Positions 6,822-18,074 of a stretch of 24,937 nt of DNA are shown piece by piece. Source of the DNA: a virus; the IMG/VR virus record IMGVR_UViG_3300042312_000479, positions 1-24,937 of that record; one strand, written 5' to 3'. Below the pieces are notes generated by a model. The model was not told the DNA's origin and ran no database searches. It saw only the letters and a list, made by a program, of their open reading frames with translations. The first letter of the stretch is position 1. Each line of letters opens with the position of its first letter. The translations under genes were made by a program, and so were the position numbers.

Positions 6822-7106
6822 TTACAATTTCCATAATTTCACACACCTAACAAGTGGTTTGCCATACACTGTCAAAGTTACAGCGCCATGCTCTTCTAAT
6901 AGATTCTGGAAGTCAAATAAGCTTTTACGCATTGCATCAACTCCAATTTGCTGATCTTGAGTATCATCAGATTTAGTTTTAACAATCGTGAATATAGGCA
7001 ACTGGTTAGAGGTTACGATATATTCTTTTTTACCAGCCGCCACGGGACGACATATGCGAGTAGGGGCTTTACGGAACTCTGAGATTGTGATGTATTCTGG
7101 AATCAT
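6822..7106 (-). CDS. Phd/YefM-like protein with two antitoxin-type half-motifs, 94 aa
   Basis: The N-terminal half (ITISEFRKAPTRICRPVAAGKKEYIVTSNQLPIFTIVK) has the Phd/YefM layout: an opening strand, a helix, then T.NQ.P...I. The C-terminal half (MRKSLFDFQNLLEEHGAVTLTVYGKPLVRCVKL) repeats the same order, with the GKP turn more canonical. It may be a tandem Phd-like repressor. No adjacent RelE/Doc-like toxin is evident, so a toxin-antitoxin role is not supported; a phage regulator is equally possible. GAGAGGG precedes the start, directly after the stop of the Gly-X gene. Confidence 0.42.
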   Translation of the reverse strand: MIPEYITISEFRKAPTRICRPVAAGKKEYIVTSNQLPIFTIVKTKSDDTQDQQIGVDAMRKSLFDFQNLLEEHGAVTLTVYGKPLVRCVKLWKL

Positions 7107-7116
7107 TTACACCCTC

Positions 7117-7368
7117 TCAATCATCGCCATCGCCAGAGCCATCGCCATAGCCATAACCATCGCCATCGCCAGAGCCGCAACCAGAGCCATAGCCAGAACC
7201 ATAGCCAAAGCCGTAACCAGAGCCAGAGCCAAAGCCAGAACCATAGCCAGAGCCATAACCATCGCCAGAACCAGAGCCAAAGCCATAGCCAAAGCCAGAG
7301 CCAGAGCCAGAGCCATAGCCATCGCCAGAGCCATAGCCAGAGCCATAATCAGTATTTAGATCTTCCAT
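7117..7368 (-). CDS. Gly-X dipeptide-repeat low-complexity protein, 83 aa
   Basis: After an 8-residue leader (MEDLNTDY) the protein is 37 consecutive Gly-X pairs and a final Asp. X is limited to Ser, Tyr, Asp, Phe and one Cys, drawn from a hexanucleotide-like DNA repeat. It is a genuine gene candidate rather than a repeat shadow: a strong GGAGGT lies 6 nt before the ATG, its start overlaps the upstream gene by 13 nt, and its stop sits just before the next gene's ribosome site. The DNA repeat keeps other frames open on both strands (Ala-Ile, Ala-Leu), which I reject. The composition resembles silk-like, aggregation-prone or phase-separating sequences. Function unknown. Confidence 0.7.
   Translation of the reverse strand: MEDLNTDYGSGYGSGDGYGSGSGSGFGYGFGSGSGDGYGSGYGSGFGSGSGYGFGYGSGYGSGCGSGDGDGYGYGDGSGDGDD
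7130..7347. repeat. Hexanucleotide-like minisatellite
   Basis: On the plus strand the tract is built from imperfect 6-mers CCAGAG, CCATAG, CCATCG, CCAAAG and CCAGAA in variable order, with no stop in several frames. It encodes the Gly-X pairs on the minus strand. Such a tract is prone to slippage length change, which would add or remove Gly-X pairs without breaking the frame. Confidence 0.85.
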
Positions 7369-7643
7369 ACAGCAACCTCCGCGATTGAATCTTTCGCGAT
7401 TTCTGTCACTGACAGAATTTCAATCACTTCAGTGACTATGATTCTGTCAACTTCCGCAGGAAATTTGCAATTACTAGGATCACTAGTTCCTGTTTGAGCT
7501 AGCTGAGAAAGGGATGCTGCCCCTGCCCATTTCCATAAACGCCGAGCGTTGCGTATTGTTGCTTGCTTACCTTCAAAAGCTTCAAGAAATCCCGCGAATA
7601 CACCCGCACTGTAAGTTCGCACAATTACATATTGATCAATCAT
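7356..7643 (-). CDS. DUF6948-like phage protein, 95 aa
   Basis: The opening YVIVRTYSAGVFAGFLEAFEGKQATIRNARRLWKWAGAASLSQLAQTG matches a small phage family with the layout YVIVRTYSAGV..G.L....G....+..+RRLW.W.GA.SL..LA..G, which I recall as DUF6948. The remainder is a beta-strand pair (VDRIIVTEVIEILSVTEIA) and a Trp near the end. Function unknown. AGAGGTG precedes the start. It is the first gene of the leftward operon running to 5432. Confidence 0.65.
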   Translation of the reverse strand: MIDQYVIVRTYSAGVFAGFLEAFEGKQATIRNARRLWKWAGAASLSQLAQTGTSDPSNCKFPAEVDRIIVTEVIEILSVTEIAKDSIAEVAVWKI

Positions 7644-13177: not shown

Positions 13178-13204
13178 AAAAAAGCCGTCGCGAGTGCAAC
13201 GACT
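13178..13204 (-). terminator. Terminator of the long leftward operon (after Cas6)
   Basis: Leftward transcript: AGTCGTTGC, loop ACTC, GCGACGGCT (9 bp with two G-U pairs), then six T. About 59 bp downstream of the cas6 stop. Between them lies a 7-bp inverted repeat of unclear role and a HIP1 site. Confidence 0.8.
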
Positions 13205-13262
13205 GGGAATGTGAAGTAGTCACTCTATTTTAAGCGATCGCTCCGCCGAGTGATTTTGTTAT

Positions 13263-13844
13263 TTATTCAAAAAACCCGCATCCTAGATGTTTGCGACCTC
13301 CCAACCCTTTCTCTTGTAATGTCAAAGACTCGTTAGGGCGCAAATCTGAAAACATTACAGGGTATACAGCACACGGTTGCTTTTTAATAATTAGCTGCTC
13401 CTTGCGCCCTATTGTTGGCAGTGTATCAATATCAAACTTTGCTAGTTGCTTGCCTAGCGACACCGCAAACCCAGCAAGATCGGGTTCACGATTGTTGTCG
13501 GTTTTAATTGATACCCAGGCCGCTAGATTCTCTTGAGATTTTAGCTCTGTGCCATTAACCAGCTTGAGTTTAATCAACTCTTTGCCTAAATGGATTTGAC
13601 AATCAAAAAGCATCGTTAGCTCTGTAATTAAATCTTTGGAGCAACGTAGCTTTATATTGCTTTGAGTTAAACGTAATGTGCGATCGTCAAAAATATTTGT
13701 GTTACTGATTCTACCGATCGCCCACTCATGGTTATCTTTGAACTTAGGAGATAATCCCGTCAAAGCGGAATAGAGACAATAATGGTAGTTTCTAGGGATT
13801 AAAGAGCCTTCAATACTGAAAAGAAATTCTACGAAGTTACTCAC
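13263..13844 (-). CDS. cas6: Cas6 CRISPR endoribonuclease, MYXAN-type
   Basis: 193 aa, GTG start with GGA upstream. The pattern fits the MYXAN (Cmx6) branch of Cas6: PRNYHYCLYSALTGLSP (17-33, with candidate catalytic His21), LRLTQSNIKLR (57-67), LGKEL, AWVSIK (109-114), EPDLAGFAVSLGKQL, IGRKEQLIIK, SLTLQEKGLGGRKHLGCGFF (173-192). The last part is the glycine-rich loop typical of RAMP RNases. Cas6 cuts pre-crRNA in CRISPR repeats and often stays bound to the crRNA 3' stem. It is the last gene of the leftward operon, 75 nt after the Coq4-like gene. No CRISPR array is in the window, so its RNA substrate must lie elsewhere, perhaps a host array. Confidence 0.83.
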   Translation of the reverse strand: MSNFVEFLFSIEGSLIPRNYHYCLYSALTGLSPKFKDNHEWAIGRISNTNIFDDRTLRLTQSNIKLRCSKDLITELTMLFDCQIHLGKELIKLKLVNGTELKSQENLAAWVSIKTDNNREPDLAGFAVSLGKQLAKFDIDTLPTIGRKEQLIIKKQPCAVYPVMFSDLRPNESLTLQEKGLGGRKHLGCGFFE

Positions 13845-13919
13845 GATCTTTTATTCCTTTGGTATTTGTGTATTTCTTCAATTCCGCATGACTTTCTTAG
13901 ATCGTTCGCTTCAAAACCG

Positions 13920-14630
13920 TTAGGGGCGGCGCAAAGGTAGCACTGCATATTTGTTTCTTACTTCTTCTAAAGGTAAATTAAGATCGTGTTGCCATTGCCA
14001 ATTTTCAAACAACGAGGCGGCATTAGCGCCAATATTCCAAGCTTTAGCAAGATTCGCAGCATCAATGCAATCCGTTTTGTCACTCAAAAAGATTTCAAGC
14101 TGTTCTAATAAAAGGATTGGAGCTGGTGATTTATGAAGCATTCCACTTTCAAAAGCGATGATCTCCATCTCTCCCCTTTGAGTGGTATCAGCACCTAAAA
14201 GAACATGATGCAAATCATGGATAATGATGTAGTTAGCAGGAAAAAGAGATGCTTCGGTATTAGGCGTTGGCACTGATTCAGATTGATAATATTCGGCTAG
14301 ATGCTCACCTAAACTATCAGGAATAGGATTGTTGATTGCATCAAGAAATAATGCAATAGACTCCTTGTCAGGATTTAAGCCAGCATTGATATAGGCTTTT
14401 AATCCGTAGTCGCGCTCATCTTTATCCATTGTAGGAAGGACGGATGGAACGGACTCCGAAAGCATCCCACAAGTCGGACGGACATACTCAAAACGAACAC
14501 GGCTAAAAATTAGCCATCGTTTAGCGTCATCAAACTGATTATTGTTGATCGTTAAATCAGGGCAAGAAACAACCCCAGATGCAAGTCGGCTAAATAAATT
14601 ACGGTCCGTCAAAAAGTTAGCGAGTTCCAT
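13920..14630 (-). CDS. Coq4-like metalloprotein within the Cas operon, 236 aa
   Basis: I start at the ATG at 14630, which has GGAG 8 nt upstream and overlaps cysH by 14 nt. The Coq4 zinc motif HDxxH-x11-E is exact: His138, Asp139, His142 and Glu154 in HDLHHVLLGADTTQRGEMEI, followed by AFESGML. The C-terminus (AWNIGANAASLFENWQWQHDLNLPLEEVRNKYAVLP) also follows the Coq4 layout (AW..G...A..L....W...W...L.EVR..Y...). Length is normal. Coq4 acts in ubiquinone synthesis (oxidative decarboxylation of the ring) and binds a polyprenyl lipid. Cyanobacteria make plastoquinone, not ubiquinone, so the substrate here is unknown. The N-terminal part is divergent. This position is one where type IV loci might carry csf1, but no Csf1-like zinc finger is seen. 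Confidence 0.75.
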   Translation of the reverse strand: MELANFLTDRNLFSRLASGVVSCPDLTINNNQFDDAKRWLIFSRVRFEYVRPTCGMLSESVPSVLPTMDKDERDYGLKAYINAGLNPDKESIALFLDAINNPIPDSLGEHLAEYYQSESVPTPNTEASLFPANYIIIHDLHHVLLGADTTQRGEMEIIAFESGMLHKSPAPILLLEQLEIFLSDKTDCIDAANLAKAWNIGANAASLFENWQWQHDLNLPLEEVRNKYAVLPLRRP

Positions 14631-15312
14631 TTTTATTCTCCAAAAAATGATTAAGTTTAGGATTGTTTTTTTTAATGTTTTCTTTTTGGGTTTCAACCAA
14701 AGAATGATTTATTGAGAACCAAAAAGAAGCATGAGGATTAGTGCGATCGCTATATTCGTAAGCATCTAAATATGGCAGATCATGCAAACAAGTATAAGCC
14801 CAAATGTCTTCAGTTTGCCAATAAGCCAAGGGAAAGCATCGCCATAAATTATCGCTTTTATATTGATGGATTACCCCATAATGTTTAATTGCACTGCGCC
14901 TTTTTTTACTTTCTTGCGCCCTAACTCCAACTAAAGCAACTTTGAACTTAGGATCTATAGTTGCCTGTATGCGATCGCGCACGGTATCAGGGGTAAAAGC
15001 CCATTCTGGTAATGCTATCAACTCTTGATAATTGGTAGGAAATTTACTGCGATAAGTTGCAATCACTTCAGGAAAATTAGAAACAAGCCCTGTAGCTGAC
15101 TCAATACTGCCATAGTGAAAAGCCAAAATATCAGGACAAATCGACTGCACTAAATGAAGCATTACGACTGAATCTTTACCCCATGACACCGCAACATAAG
15201 AAGGTGCGATCGCTAAAGCCTCTCGAATAATCTCTTTAGCTTTCTCAACTTTGCGCTTAAATGTTGGCAGTGTCGCATGAGCTAAAAAAGCATCGCGTTC
15301 TATTCTCTCCAT
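14617..15312 (-). CDS. CysH/PAPS-reductase-family PP-loop protein
   Basis: 231 aa. The PP-loop ATP-binding motif is SWGKDS (43-48), followed by VGVRAQESKKRR (128-139) and RCFPLAYWQTEDIWAY (158-173), all standard for the PAPS reductase/DndC/IbrA superfamily. The C-terminal ECGxH motif carrying the catalytic Cys of true PAPS reductases is absent, so classical sulfonucleotide reduction is unlikely. An adenylating or sulfur-transfer reaction on another substrate is more plausible. Start at 15312 overlaps csf3 by 13 nt with no strong ribosome site, so translation is coupled. CysH-like genes are characteristic partners of type IV-B CRISPR-Cas loci, but also occur alone in phages. Confidence 0.85.
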   Translation of the reverse strand: MERIERDAFLAHATLPTFKRKVEKAKEIIREALAIAPSYVAVSWGKDSVVMLHLVQSICPDILAFHYGSIESATGLVSNFPEVIATYRSKFPTNYQELIALPEWAFTPDTVRDRIQATIDPKFKVALVGVRAQESKKRRSAIKHYGVIHQYKSDNLWRCFPLAYWQTEDIWAYTCLHDLPYLDAYEYSDRTNPHASFWFSINHSLVETQKENIKKNNPKLNHFLENKNGTR

Positions 15313-15986
15313 ACATTATCCGTTGGCATATAGCACATAGTTCTATTGGATTGCACAAAATACGGTGTTCGCCACCCCCAGTTCATCATATTGATAGATT
15401 GAGGTTGTGGAATCATATTAATTGGCATTGGTCGGGCTAAACTATTACCTCTCCACAAATGCCAATCATATTCAAAAGGAAGTACTTCCCATTTGTGTAC
15501 CTGCCCGCAACCTTGCGATCGCTTCTTACCAAGATGCGTAACATTTAGAATTAGTTCGCTAATCTTGTCAGCATTGCCAATCGCAAACCAGTGTATAGTC
15601 TGCATTTCGCGATCATATCGTGGCAAGTCATAGGCTTTAAAATGCCCTTGCGAACTATCAACCTTAGCTTTCTTTTTACCCCAATCAAGGTGTAGTTCTT
15701 GCTTGTCCCATCGCTTACGGTAACGCTGAGTTTGTTGATGATTTTCGATGTAGTGTGGTGAACTCACAGCCCAATACCACTCGCCTTTGAGCGTCTTCCG
15801 AGCGATCGGCATTTCATCAAAAATCAAGGGCAGATTCTTTTTGGCATCCGCAGCCGTTGGATTAGGCGTGATTAACCCTAATTGGTCTAACAATTGATAC
15901 TCAATCAGGGCATCAAAGCTAGGGGACCAGTCATCATAGGCAACTAGCGGCGTTGCCATGTGTGCAATTATTTGGAGGTTATCCAT
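15300..15986 (-). CDS. csf3: Cas5-family RAMP protein (Csf3-like)
   Basis: 228 aa. The start has AGGAG upstream and overlaps csf2 by 8 nt. Csf3-like features are an opening strand LQIIAHMATPLV, FDALIEYQLL (24-33, the usual HLDALL-type helix), MPIARKTLKGEWYWAVSSPHY (59-79) and the RAMP glycine-rich loop LGKKRSQGCGQVHKWEV (152-168). Cas5/Csf3 caps the crRNA 5' handle and joins the Cas7 backbone in type IV effectors. It has no nuclease motif of its own. The family call rests on motif layout plus adjacency to the Cas7 gene. Confidence 0.74.
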   Translation of the reverse strand: MDNLQIIAHMATPLVAYDDWSPSFDALIEYQLLDQLGLITPNPTAADAKKNLPLIFDEMPIARKTLKGEWYWAVSSPHYIENHQQTQRYRKRWDKQELHLDWGKKKAKVDSSQGHFKAYDLPRYDREMQTIHWFAIGNADKISELILNVTHLGKKRSQGCGQVHKWEVLPFEYDWHLWRGNSLARPMPINMIPQPQSINMMNWGWRTPYFVQSNRTMCYMPTDNVWRE

Positions 15987-17187
15987 TCAATAAACTCCTA
16001 ATATCGCTTTTAGAATCAGCAAGAAATCCTTTGTAATCTTCGAGATATTCTTTATACCTTGCATGAGATTCAGAGGCGCGATCGCTTAATTTCTGAGCAT
16101 GAGGTGTAATCGTCATAAACTCACCGCGATCGCCCTCCGCAGTCTCAAACCAGAATTGCATAGAACATAGTCCGCAACCCGTTCCTGATTGACCGCCTAA
16201 GTATGGCGATTCAGCAAACTTGAGTAAAGCATCAGCAATAAATCCTTCTTCGATTCTGGTGACGTTTGCGCTCCAATAAGAGTACAAAGTAGCACCTGTT
16301 TGAAGTAGCCAATTACCCATGATCATCTGTTGGCTTTTCTCTCTTTCGGGCTTTGCTTTGTCACCTTTCCCTTTCTTAGTTTCTTCAGAAACTATGCCAA
16401 ATAGATCGCCTTGAGAAATCATCTTTTGAGGTTCTGGAGTAGCGCCGATCAAATGTTTTGCAAAGTTAGGATCGTGAAGTGAATCGCGCCTTGTCTTTTG
16501 GCTATAGGTAAGCCAATCGGAATAATATCGAAGCCTTTCTCCCAAGAACGGCATCCATTCAGCAAGCAATGCCTTTAGATCGTAATTATTAACATCCGAA
16601 GGAGAACCATGATGTAGCCATTGATTCACTCGTTGACTATGCTGTAAGTCTTTGCCATCGATAATCTGCTCTAGTGCTGGTATGACTTCGATTGGCAACG
16701 CAGGGGGGAACATCTGATAAAGATACTTAGCGCTCTCTACACAAGCCAAATAAGCATCACCAACAGCGATCCGACCGTGCACCATTTGAGCATCGGATAC
16801 ACCAAACAATCCTTTAGGTTTGGCGGTTCCTAGTACTGAGAGGCATGGCAAAAGCTGACGGATTTTTCTATCCAAATCCAAATCATTACCCGTGCCACCA
16901 TCAATCGCGCCGCCACAAAATAGAGCGTGATGCATCGTTGGCGATACTTGCACACCAATCTGAGATAAGAAAGAATCAATACCACACCGCCTTAAAATTC
17001 GATTGCGTAGTGAGTTGCCAGAAAGTGTGAAAACTTCAGAGGGATTGCCTTCTAAATCCGTCACCTTCATTGTTCGCAAGTTTGTTTGATTGCCTACGGA
17101 CTCACTGATATGGGACAAAGGCTGTAGCAAAGTAATCTGCAAATGTAGTTTGATATTATGGCGATCGTGTGGGTTGTAATTAAGCAT
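15979..17187 (-). CDS. csf2: Cas7-family RAMP backbone protein (Csf2-like)
   Basis: 402 aa. RAMP layout: first strand KLHLQITLLQPLSHISES (13-30), LSGNSLRNRILRR (55-67, the conserved arginine-rich helix after a Gly), CLSVLGTAKPKGLFGVSDAQMVHGRIAVGDA (115-145), a mid-domain insertion, and YLGGQSGTGCGLCSMQF (329-345), the glycine-rich C-terminal loop. Cas7/Csf2 polymerises along the crRNA spacer and holds it for target pairing. A Lys/Glu-rich insert (~268-286) is probably the flexible thumb region. It overlaps genes on both sides by 8 nt. Type III Cas7 is the main alternative, but the Csf3-like and CysH-like neighbours favour type IV. Confidence 0.75.
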   Translation of the reverse strand: MLNYNPHDRHNIKLHLQITLLQPLSHISESVGNQTNLRTMKVTDLEGNPSEVFTLSGNSLRNRILRRCGIDSFLSQIGVQVSPTMHHALFCGGAIDGGTGNDLDLDRKIRQLLPCLSVLGTAKPKGLFGVSDAQMVHGRIAVGDAYLACVESAKYLYQMFPPALPIEVIPALEQIIDGKDLQHSQRVNQWLHHGSPSDVNNYDLKALLAEWMPFLGERLRYYSDWLTYSQKTRRDSLHDPNFAKHLIGATPEPQKMISQGDLFGIVSEETKKGKGDKAKPEREKSQQMIMGNWLLQTGATLYSYWSANVTRIEEGFIADALLKFAESPYLGGQSGTGCGLCSMQFWFETAEGDRGEFMTITPHAQKLSDRASESHARYKEYLEDYKGFLADSKSDIRSLLNG

Positions 17188-17704
17188 TGATAGTAGCCTC
17201 TACATCTAGAGTATTTTCTGTTTCTTCTGGAATATTCAAAGCGCGATCGCTTTCAAAGCGAACACGACAATAAGTAGTAATAATGTGCGGTCTTGATTTG
17301 CACAAACCGAGGATATGGCGATCGCTTATCCCGTGAGGTTTAAGAGAGTTGAGAATATCTTGCCATCCGAGCCATTGCAAATGTTGATCGCTATCAATTT
17401 GCTGAATGTCTCCCATACTGCCATCATCATTCACAGTAGCCCGTAAAACCACTTGTTTTGGCGCGATTATGCGAGTCCATTCTTTTGGGTTGAGGTGTGC
17501 AACAATAAGCTTCTTGGCTAAATTCTCAATGTAGTCGTCGATATTGCGAGAGGGAATAGCAGCATTTTGGATACTGCTTTGAAAATATTCCCATGTTTTT
17601 AAGCCCATGGCAGGGCTTTTGCCCTTGTCTCTACAGCGAAAAACCCAGTAACTAAGCGCACTGGCTAAAGCTGTAACCCTGTCTTCCGTTTCTATTCCAT
17701 ACAT
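17180..17704 (-). CDS. Unknown protein, candidate small subunit of the Cas complex, 174 aa
   Basis: Its 3' end overlaps csf2 by 8 nt, the position of cas11 in type IV-B loci, so membership of the complex is inferred from position. The first ~75 residues are helical (EDRVTALASALSYWVFRCRDKG..., TWEYFQSSIQNA, IDDYIENLAKKLIVAHL), compatible with a small-subunit bundle. The rest includes a strand VVLRATVNDDG and a segment HIITTYCRVRFESDRALNI. It is larger than typical Cas11, and no Csf1-type zinc finger is present. GAGA precedes the start. A non-Cas phage protein remains possible. Confidence 0.5.
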   Translation of the reverse strand: MYGIETEDRVTALASALSYWVFRCRDKGKSPAMGLKTWEYFQSSIQNAAIPSRNIDDYIENLAKKLIVAHLNPKEWTRIIAPKQVVLRATVNDDGSMGDIQQIDSDQHLQWLGWQDILNSLKPHGISDRHILGLCKSRPHIITTYCRVRFESDRALNIPEETENTLDVEATINA

Positions 17705-17732: not shown

Positions 17733-18074
17733 TTATTCTAGATCACAAACAGCATTCCAAGCCGCCAACTTAGCTTTACCGACAGACACACCACGCGCCC
17801 TAGCATGGTCAAAAGCTTTATTACGCAGTCTACTTAACTCACGCGCCCGCATCTCCTTTGGTGTCGCCTTACGCAGTTTAGGAATAGCGCGATAATTACC
17901 CTCAACGCATTCAATATGCAAGCGCCTGTTACCGTATGCGATCGCGCCTTGGTTAAGAAGTAAGCGCAATGCGCTCGTATTGATTTGCGTGCATATTTCG
18001 ATATAGCGCAGAGAGTAAGAGCCGCGATGGGTGGTAAAAAAGCCGATGAGCTTAGCTCGTTCAATTTCTTGCAT
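17733..18074 (-). CDS. Putative winged-helix protein, 113 aa
   Basis: The N-terminal half (AKLIGFFTTHRGSYSLRYIEICTQINTSALRLLLNQGAIAYGNRRLHIE) suggests a winged helix: helix, helix, recognition helix and a wing hairpin. The C-terminal half is basic and helical (KATPKEMRARELSRLRNKAFDHARARGVS), fitting nucleic-acid binding. The start overlaps the upstream stop as TAATG. It lies 28 nt before the 174-aa gene, so it may regulate or accompany the Cas cassette. No family recognised. Confidence 0.55.
   Translation of the reverse strand: MQEIERAKLIGFFTTHRGSYSLRYIEICTQINTSALRLLLNQGAIAYGNRRLHIECVEGNYRAIPKLRKATPKEMRARELSRLRNKAFDHARARGVSVGKAKLAAWNAVCDLE

Follow-up and report, generated by a model that had tools for sequence, protein, structure and literature searches.

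A Cas6 of the type I-MYXAN family as the terminal gene of a phage-borne type IV-B operon

Among CRISPR subtypes, type IV-B poses the question of where its guides come from and what purpose it serves, and it is said to have lost Cas6-based processing. It has been reviewed as having neither an array nor a crRNA-processing enzyme (PMC8175902, PMC7937560), and most of its loci are array-less in the 2025 classification (PMC12669027). The only IV-B complex studied, that of Mycobacterium, was assembled on non-specific RNA and showed no crRNA enrichment despite the co-expression of Cas6 and an array (PMC7937560). The IMG/VR virus record IMGVR_UViG_3300042312_000479, analyzed here over its 24,937 bases (the window), encodes a Cas6 among type IV-like genes. 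The question that this locus raises is what such a protein does in a IV-B operon, and which RNA it would act upon.

The operon is located on the minus strand and has the order Cas11-Csf2-Csf3-CysH-Coq4-like-Cas6, being cas6 the terminal gene. From cas11 to the Coq4-like gene, each gene overlaps the next by 8-14 bases; the start of cas6 then follows at a distance of 75 bases. The features, from upstream to downstream, are:

17733..18074, minus strand: gene of 113 aa with no family match, which in the window clade immediately precedes cas11 (93-100% identity in relatives)
17180..17704, minus strand: cas11, type IV small subunit (PADLOC PDLC01696, 5.7e-13)
15979..17187, minus strand: csf2, type IV Cas7 (PADLOC PDLC01724, 4e-43)
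15300..15986, minus strand: csf3, type IV Cas5 (PADLOC PDLC01727, 3.3e-47; TIGR03116, 1.8e-17, below cut-off)
14617..15312, minus strand: cysH-like gene, with codons 1-65 constant and the remainder varying among relatives (PF01507, 6.7e-13)
about 13920..14630, minus strand: Coq4-like gene with an HDLHHVLLG...E motif, within the swapped cassette described below (PF05019, E=2e-4, below cut-off)
13918..13948, minus strand: stub of the csf1 5′ end, ATGCAGTGCTACCTTTGCGCCGCCCCTAACG, reading MQCYLCAAPN, upstream of cas6 and overlapping the end of the Coq4-like gene (25-nt matches, translation)
13263..13844, minus strand: cas6, I-MYXAN family (TIGR02807), 193 aa, GTG start (Pfam, NCBIfam, PADLOC, structure model)
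13178..13204, minus strand: terminator-like hairpin with T-run, AGTCGT..ACGGCT-TTTTTT, directly 3′ of cas6 (sequence, alignment)

The type IV-B genes csf2, csf3, cas11 and a cysH-like gene thus stand together in the window, and the Csf3, Csf2, Cas11 and CysH-like neighbors bear out a previous reading of the sequence alone, in which Cas6 was joined to type IV-like genes. The Coq4-like gene between cysH and cas6 had been missed there; its assignment is weak in the window, whereas its homologue in a distant phage contig (G404) matches PF05019 above the cut-off (2e-6). DinG was not found among the operon proteins scanned. The terminator-like hairpin is conserved in the alignment of relatives, most of which have AGCCGT, preserving the stem. 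Between this hairpin and cas6, at 13219-13258, lies a small palindrome, TCACTC..GAGTGA, the core of which is a HIP1 site; it is missing in L058, L064, L018 and L023 and is possibly a mobile mini-element. Elsewhere in the window (7091-7382), a tandem repeat of 6/12/18 nt encodes a protein made of Gly/Ser/Tyr repeats (GYGSGSGSG), and other frames of this stretch contain long ORFs rich in Ala.

The protein matches Cas6 models of Pfam (E=1.2e-32), of PADLOC (Cas6, 1.2e-34; Cas6 MYXAN, 1.2e-30) and of NCBIfam, where TIGR02807 (cas6_cmx6, type I-MYXAN) aligns over model positions 2-195 of 197 (E=4.5e-30) and scores 105.1 bits, above its curated cut-off of 98.85. Searches against these three libraries gave no Csf5-type match, among whatever Csf5 models they contain. 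Both features on which the sequence-only reading had placed the protein in the MYXAN branch of Cas6 and not with Csf5 are present, namely a C-terminus rich in glycine, GLGGRKHLGCGFF, and the segment PRNYHYCLYSAL; G180, G182, C189 and G190 of the C-terminal loop are invariant in 14 sequences. An AlphaFold2 model of moderate confidence (pLDDT 74, pTM 0.51) has as best PDB match the Cas6 of a type I-B CAST (8fcj, E=3.6e-11; 8fcu), followed by Pyrococcus Cas6. The identity as an I-MYXAN Cas6, and not Csf5, is hence confirmed at the level of family models. Nor is the reading frame a chance one, since other phage contigs have it at the corresponding position with 94-95% identity.

The predicted active site is altered. 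Most MYXAN Cas6 proteins have a histidine in DHxY, in PxxH or in both, and the CAST clade has the second only; the PxxH position presumably corresponds to the catalytic His46 of Pyrococcus Cas6. In the window clade, Y20 and K36 replace both canonical histidines, and a new histidine, H21, adjoins Y20. As for the RNase-relevant residues, the loss of which was to count against the sequence-only reading, they have therefore gone from the two MYXAN positions, while H21 has appeared next to one of them. The Cas6 of Sulfolobus has no histidine in its active site and is nonetheless active (PMC3652601). Both histidines are retained in the IV-B Cas6 of G404 and in that of a Gloeobacter plasmid, which makes catalysis by these two proteins plausible. 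The window-clade gene is under purifying selection: dN/dS is 0.14 against L026 (67% identical) and 0.19-0.66 within the clade, mostly 0.2-0.35.

When viral contigs were scanned, at least nine phage contigs showed the same operon, with a Cas6 94-95% identical to that of the window and Csf2 and Csf3 mostly 94-100% identical. Cas6 is present in 13 of the virus records searched, the window counted, and a profile search returned the same 13 plus the Gloeobacter plasmid. In L031 cas6 begins four bases before cysH ends, and in L030/L036 before the end of the cupin gene; these overlaps suggest that cas6 is translated as an operon member and, together with the terminator-like hairpin that follows, point to Cas6 as an integral part of the operon. 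Contig G404 (30.9 kb) is only distantly related (Csf2 52%, Csf3 43%, CysH 48% identity) and keeps the order Cas11-Csf2-Csf3-CysH-Coq4-Cas6; its Cas6 is 23% identical to that of the window, yet scores 172 bits with TIGR02807. The homologue in G406 scores 85.7 bits, just under the cut-off. In Gloeobacter morelensis plasmid pGMOR1 (NZ_CP063846) the operon reads Cas11-Csf2-Cas6-Csf3-CysH-cupin-Csf1; at L176:16738-18840 the same plasmid also encodes a type I-D-like Cas3 helicase, whose gene overlaps one for a DNA methyltransferase, with no other annotated cas genes close by. Five records, G397 (75.5 kb, probably a complete genome), G405, G408, G409 and G410, have the type IV genes and csf1 without Cas6.

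The Csf3 model had no match in 386 cyanobacterial genomes and was positive in 7/7 control records of the same search; no Csf2 relative was found among 50,697 named-phage records, nor by an alignment search of genome contigs. Since Csf3 was not found in the genomes nor Csf2 in the named phages, the lineage is confined in this sample to phages and one plasmid. The phage records are, except for two, fragments or of uncertain completeness. The host is very probably a cyanobacterium, because the window contains 38 HIP1 octamers (GCGATCGC) against 0.18 expected. Some loci have been interrupted: a GIY-YIG endonuclease gene is inserted between csf2 and csf3 in L037 (7199-7576, Pfam-supported) and L049 (6353-7183, by eye), L043 and L044 have gaps at this place, and the type IV locus has decayed in L049/L050.

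How cas6 came to its present place can be followed in the sister phages, in which csf1 comes after cysH. In the window cas6 takes that place and a csf1 5′ stub remains; 25-nt matches link this stub to the beginning of csf1 in L041, L061, L062 and L026. L026/G406 have a fusion of the same stub with the cas6 N-terminus, and an intact csf1 lies a few genes further. We read this as module recombination in situ, visible in the sequence itself, because cas6 occupies the place of csf1 and the stub is left behind; the recombination between CRISPR types that had been suggested earlier thus finds its trace. Loss of Csf1 from the window clade was considered and rejected: csf1 is not in the window fragment, and it lies intact about 50 kb away in the long relatives G395 and G396.

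In a tree of 45 Cas6 sequences, built without Csf5 and non-MYXAN Cas6 outgroups, the window clade is fully supported on a branch of ~2.7 substitutions per site, and the G404 and Gloeobacter proteins are placed elsewhere, on long branches. Monophyly of IV-B Cas6 is neither shown nor rejected (p-AU 0.38), so that one ancient acquisition followed by fast evolution and several acquisitions are both possible. No close chromosomal relative was found in the 386 cyanobacterial genomes, the best being ~27-33% identical; in view of this and the long branch, a grouping with a particular host Cas6 is not supported.

The same segment of the operon also exchanges other genes. Similarity among relatives stops sharply at 15117-15121, within cysH past codon 65 (seven records), and resumes at 13831-13907. 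When the window (15121-13831) is compared with L030, L031, L033, L037, L004, L009, L040 and L047, the variable part is the CysH C-terminus followed by a Coq4-like gene of either of two kinds, by a cupin gene or by no gene; cousins have a glycosyltransferase plus a cupin-like gene, or a DNA methyltransferase replacing cysH. Between the csf1 stub and cas6 the window has a remnant resembling the L031-type CysH end (GIEEIHKYQRNKRS vs GIEKMHKYQRNKK), apparently a scar left by a previous cassette.

If Cas6 is to act on CRISPR RNA, this RNA has to come from somewhere, and no CRISPR array was found in the window. The 80-kb relative G396, probably complete because it has an exact 127-bp terminal repeat, encodes Csf1, Cas6 and the rest of the system; a simple spaced-repeat search gave no array in it, and Cas12u2 was not found. 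Arrays with a 37-nt repeat are present in G395 (L132:8613-8915, minus strand), G398 (L159:13911-14382), G399 (L162) and G423 (L169:1007-1308). Each directly follows a Cas12u2 (type V-U2) gene (7e-107), the 3′ end of which overlaps the first repeat, an arrangement that brings to mind an array arisen by duplication of a TnpB guide-RNA scaffold. G398/G399 have the array and a decayed type IV locus without Cas6; Both Cas6 and an array are present in G395, and likewise in two contigs from a single metagenome (49629). The arrays track with Cas12u2, not with Cas6. The simplest reading is that the RNA substrate of Cas6 is probably supplied in trans, possibly by the infected host, since G396 has Cas6 without an array and the other arrays go with Cas12u2. 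The recruitment of Cas6 to process repeat RNA of the host, which the sequence-only reading had offered as an option, agrees with the array-less G396.

Searches for this RNA, limited to the records examined, identified neither a host nor a cognate repeat for Cas6. MYXAN-like repeats were not found in the phages, only the terminator, a promoter-like stretch and the small palindrome lie downstream of cas6, and a search for host arrays with the Cas12u2 repeat gave two isolated 3-mismatch matches only. The Gloeobacter plasmid has two loose 25-nt spaced-repeat candidates for an array. A 30-nt hairpin, TATATTTTGATCCTTGGTAGGGATTGAAAG, recurs in two phages without Cas6 (G408, L156:6598, 6700 and 9360; L042:1986 and 4142). 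It is repeated in G408/G411, where one copy precedes cas11 by ~70 bases; it has the look of a solitary CRISPR repeat, and is absent from the 386 cyanobacterial genomes at 2 mismatches.

Building on what is observed directly (gene identities, conserved order, purifying selection and the lack of an array in a complete relative), we propose that the operon encodes a phage IV-B ribonucleoprotein with Cas6 as its dedicated RNA-capture and maturation subunit, a tentative reading to which we give somewhat less than even odds (about 0.45). The complex would consist of a Csf2 backbone, Cas11, Csf3 and Csf1 encoded elsewhere. The guide RNAs would be transcribed in trans, most likely from CRISPR arrays of the host; Cas6 would bind, and may cleave, their repeat hairpins and deliver the guides to the Csf complex. 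In this way the phage would borrow or sequester guides of the host while infecting it. The window-clade protein, its active site altered, may merely bind and cap RNA. CysH and the adjoining swappable enzyme (Coq4-like, cupin or others) would act downstream of the complex. We count in favor of this reading the order kept in G404, the location of cas6 inside the plasmid IV-B operon, its dN/dS, the case of G396 and the HIP1 excess and, as precedent, the structural match to I-B CAST Cas6, since CASTs have been reported to use host crRNAs via Cas6 (PMC11656645). We count against it the Mycobacterium complex on non-specific RNA (PMC7937560), the substituted histidines of the window clade, the outcome of the repeat searches, and the close relatives, G397 included, that keep the IV-B genes without cas6. 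A more far-reaching version, quite unlikely in our estimation, is a guide-hijacking machine: Cas6 would strip or bind guides from host CRISPR transcripts and load a nuclease-free IV-B complex, the target nucleic acid would be chemically modified by CysH together with its exchangeable partner enzyme (Coq4-like, cupin, glycosyltransferase, methyltransferase), and cassette exchange would diversify the modification.

Several other explanations were weighed. Cas6 could be a counter-defence factor that cuts or sequesters host pre-crRNA and so disarms host CRISPR, sharing the operon for co-expression only; a phage-borne gene in a replaceable, variable neighborhood resembling an arms-race locus, in a lineage with an array-less complete member, fits this idea, but linkage to csf2, csf3 and cas11 in three divergent lineages, in phages and a plasmid, exceeds what co-expression needs, and we hold it to be unlikely. 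Similarly improbable is that the window-clade Cas6 is a non-catalytic structural subunit capping RNA in the IV-B complex while host enzymes do the processing: Y20, K36 and the long branch speak for it, and against it stand H21 next to the lost position, the Sulfolobus enzyme (PMC3652601) and the G404 and Gloeobacter proteins with both histidines.

That Cas6 processes the phage's own array beside Cas12u2, with the IV-B complex using those guides, appears very unlikely. The 37-nt repeat does fold into a strong hairpin ending ATTGGAAG, and both Cas6 and an array are present in G395 and in the two contigs of metagenome 49629; however, the array goes with Cas12u2 and not with Cas6, since G398/G399 have it while lacking Cas6 and G396 possesses Cas6 but no array, and the Cas12u2 gene extends with its 3′ end into the repeat. 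We give hardly any credence to Cas6 as a functionless passenger of recombination. Scars and cassette turnover surround the gene and sister phages do without it, but the gene is under purifying selection, is conserved at 94-95%, shows translational overlaps and recurs in three lineages, which tells against this. A conserved IV-B lineage with Cas6 and without an array makes it testable which RNA IV-B uses: the specificity of Cas6 would indicate the repeat, and therefore the source of the RNA. The contrasting active-site states and the natural series of CysH cassettes provide material for testing the role of CysH.

With respect to known systems, the locus resembles type I-MYXAN and I-B Cas6, including that of the I-B CAST (8fcj), in family model, overall fold and glycine-rich C-terminal loop; it differs in that identity is 24-33%, both canonical histidine positions are substituted, and Cas6 stands among type IV, not type I, genes. 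Like type IV-A (Cas6/Csf5), it joins a type IV effector to a Cas6-like protein of its own; unlike in IV-A, that protein has no Csf5-model match, CysH is present and no array adjoins. The four related contigs with TnpB/Cas12u2 and an adjacent short array resemble the type V-U2 locus known from cyanophage CL131 (PMC6293099), a separate system which does not track with Cas6. The pGMOR1 locus likewise combines IV-B genes, a MYXAN Cas6, CysH and a small partner enzyme in a single operon, but there cas6 lies between csf2 and csf3, csf1 is within the operon and both histidines are kept. Standard IV-B, as in the Csf complex of Mycobacterium sp. JS623 and plasmid loci, has in common with the window csf2, csf3, cas11 and a CysH-like gene, and with relatives of the window csf1 in the genome and, in a complete one, the lack of an array. 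It differs from the phage-borne window clade, in which csf1 is detached and the swapped CysH cassette contains a Coq4-like or cupin gene. The primary surveys (Pinilla-Redondo 2020, Moya-Beltran 2021) may mention IV-B loci with cas6. We regard the operon as a variant of IV-B, and not as a new type, set apart from standard IV-B because cas6 is in the operon of the window and its relatives.
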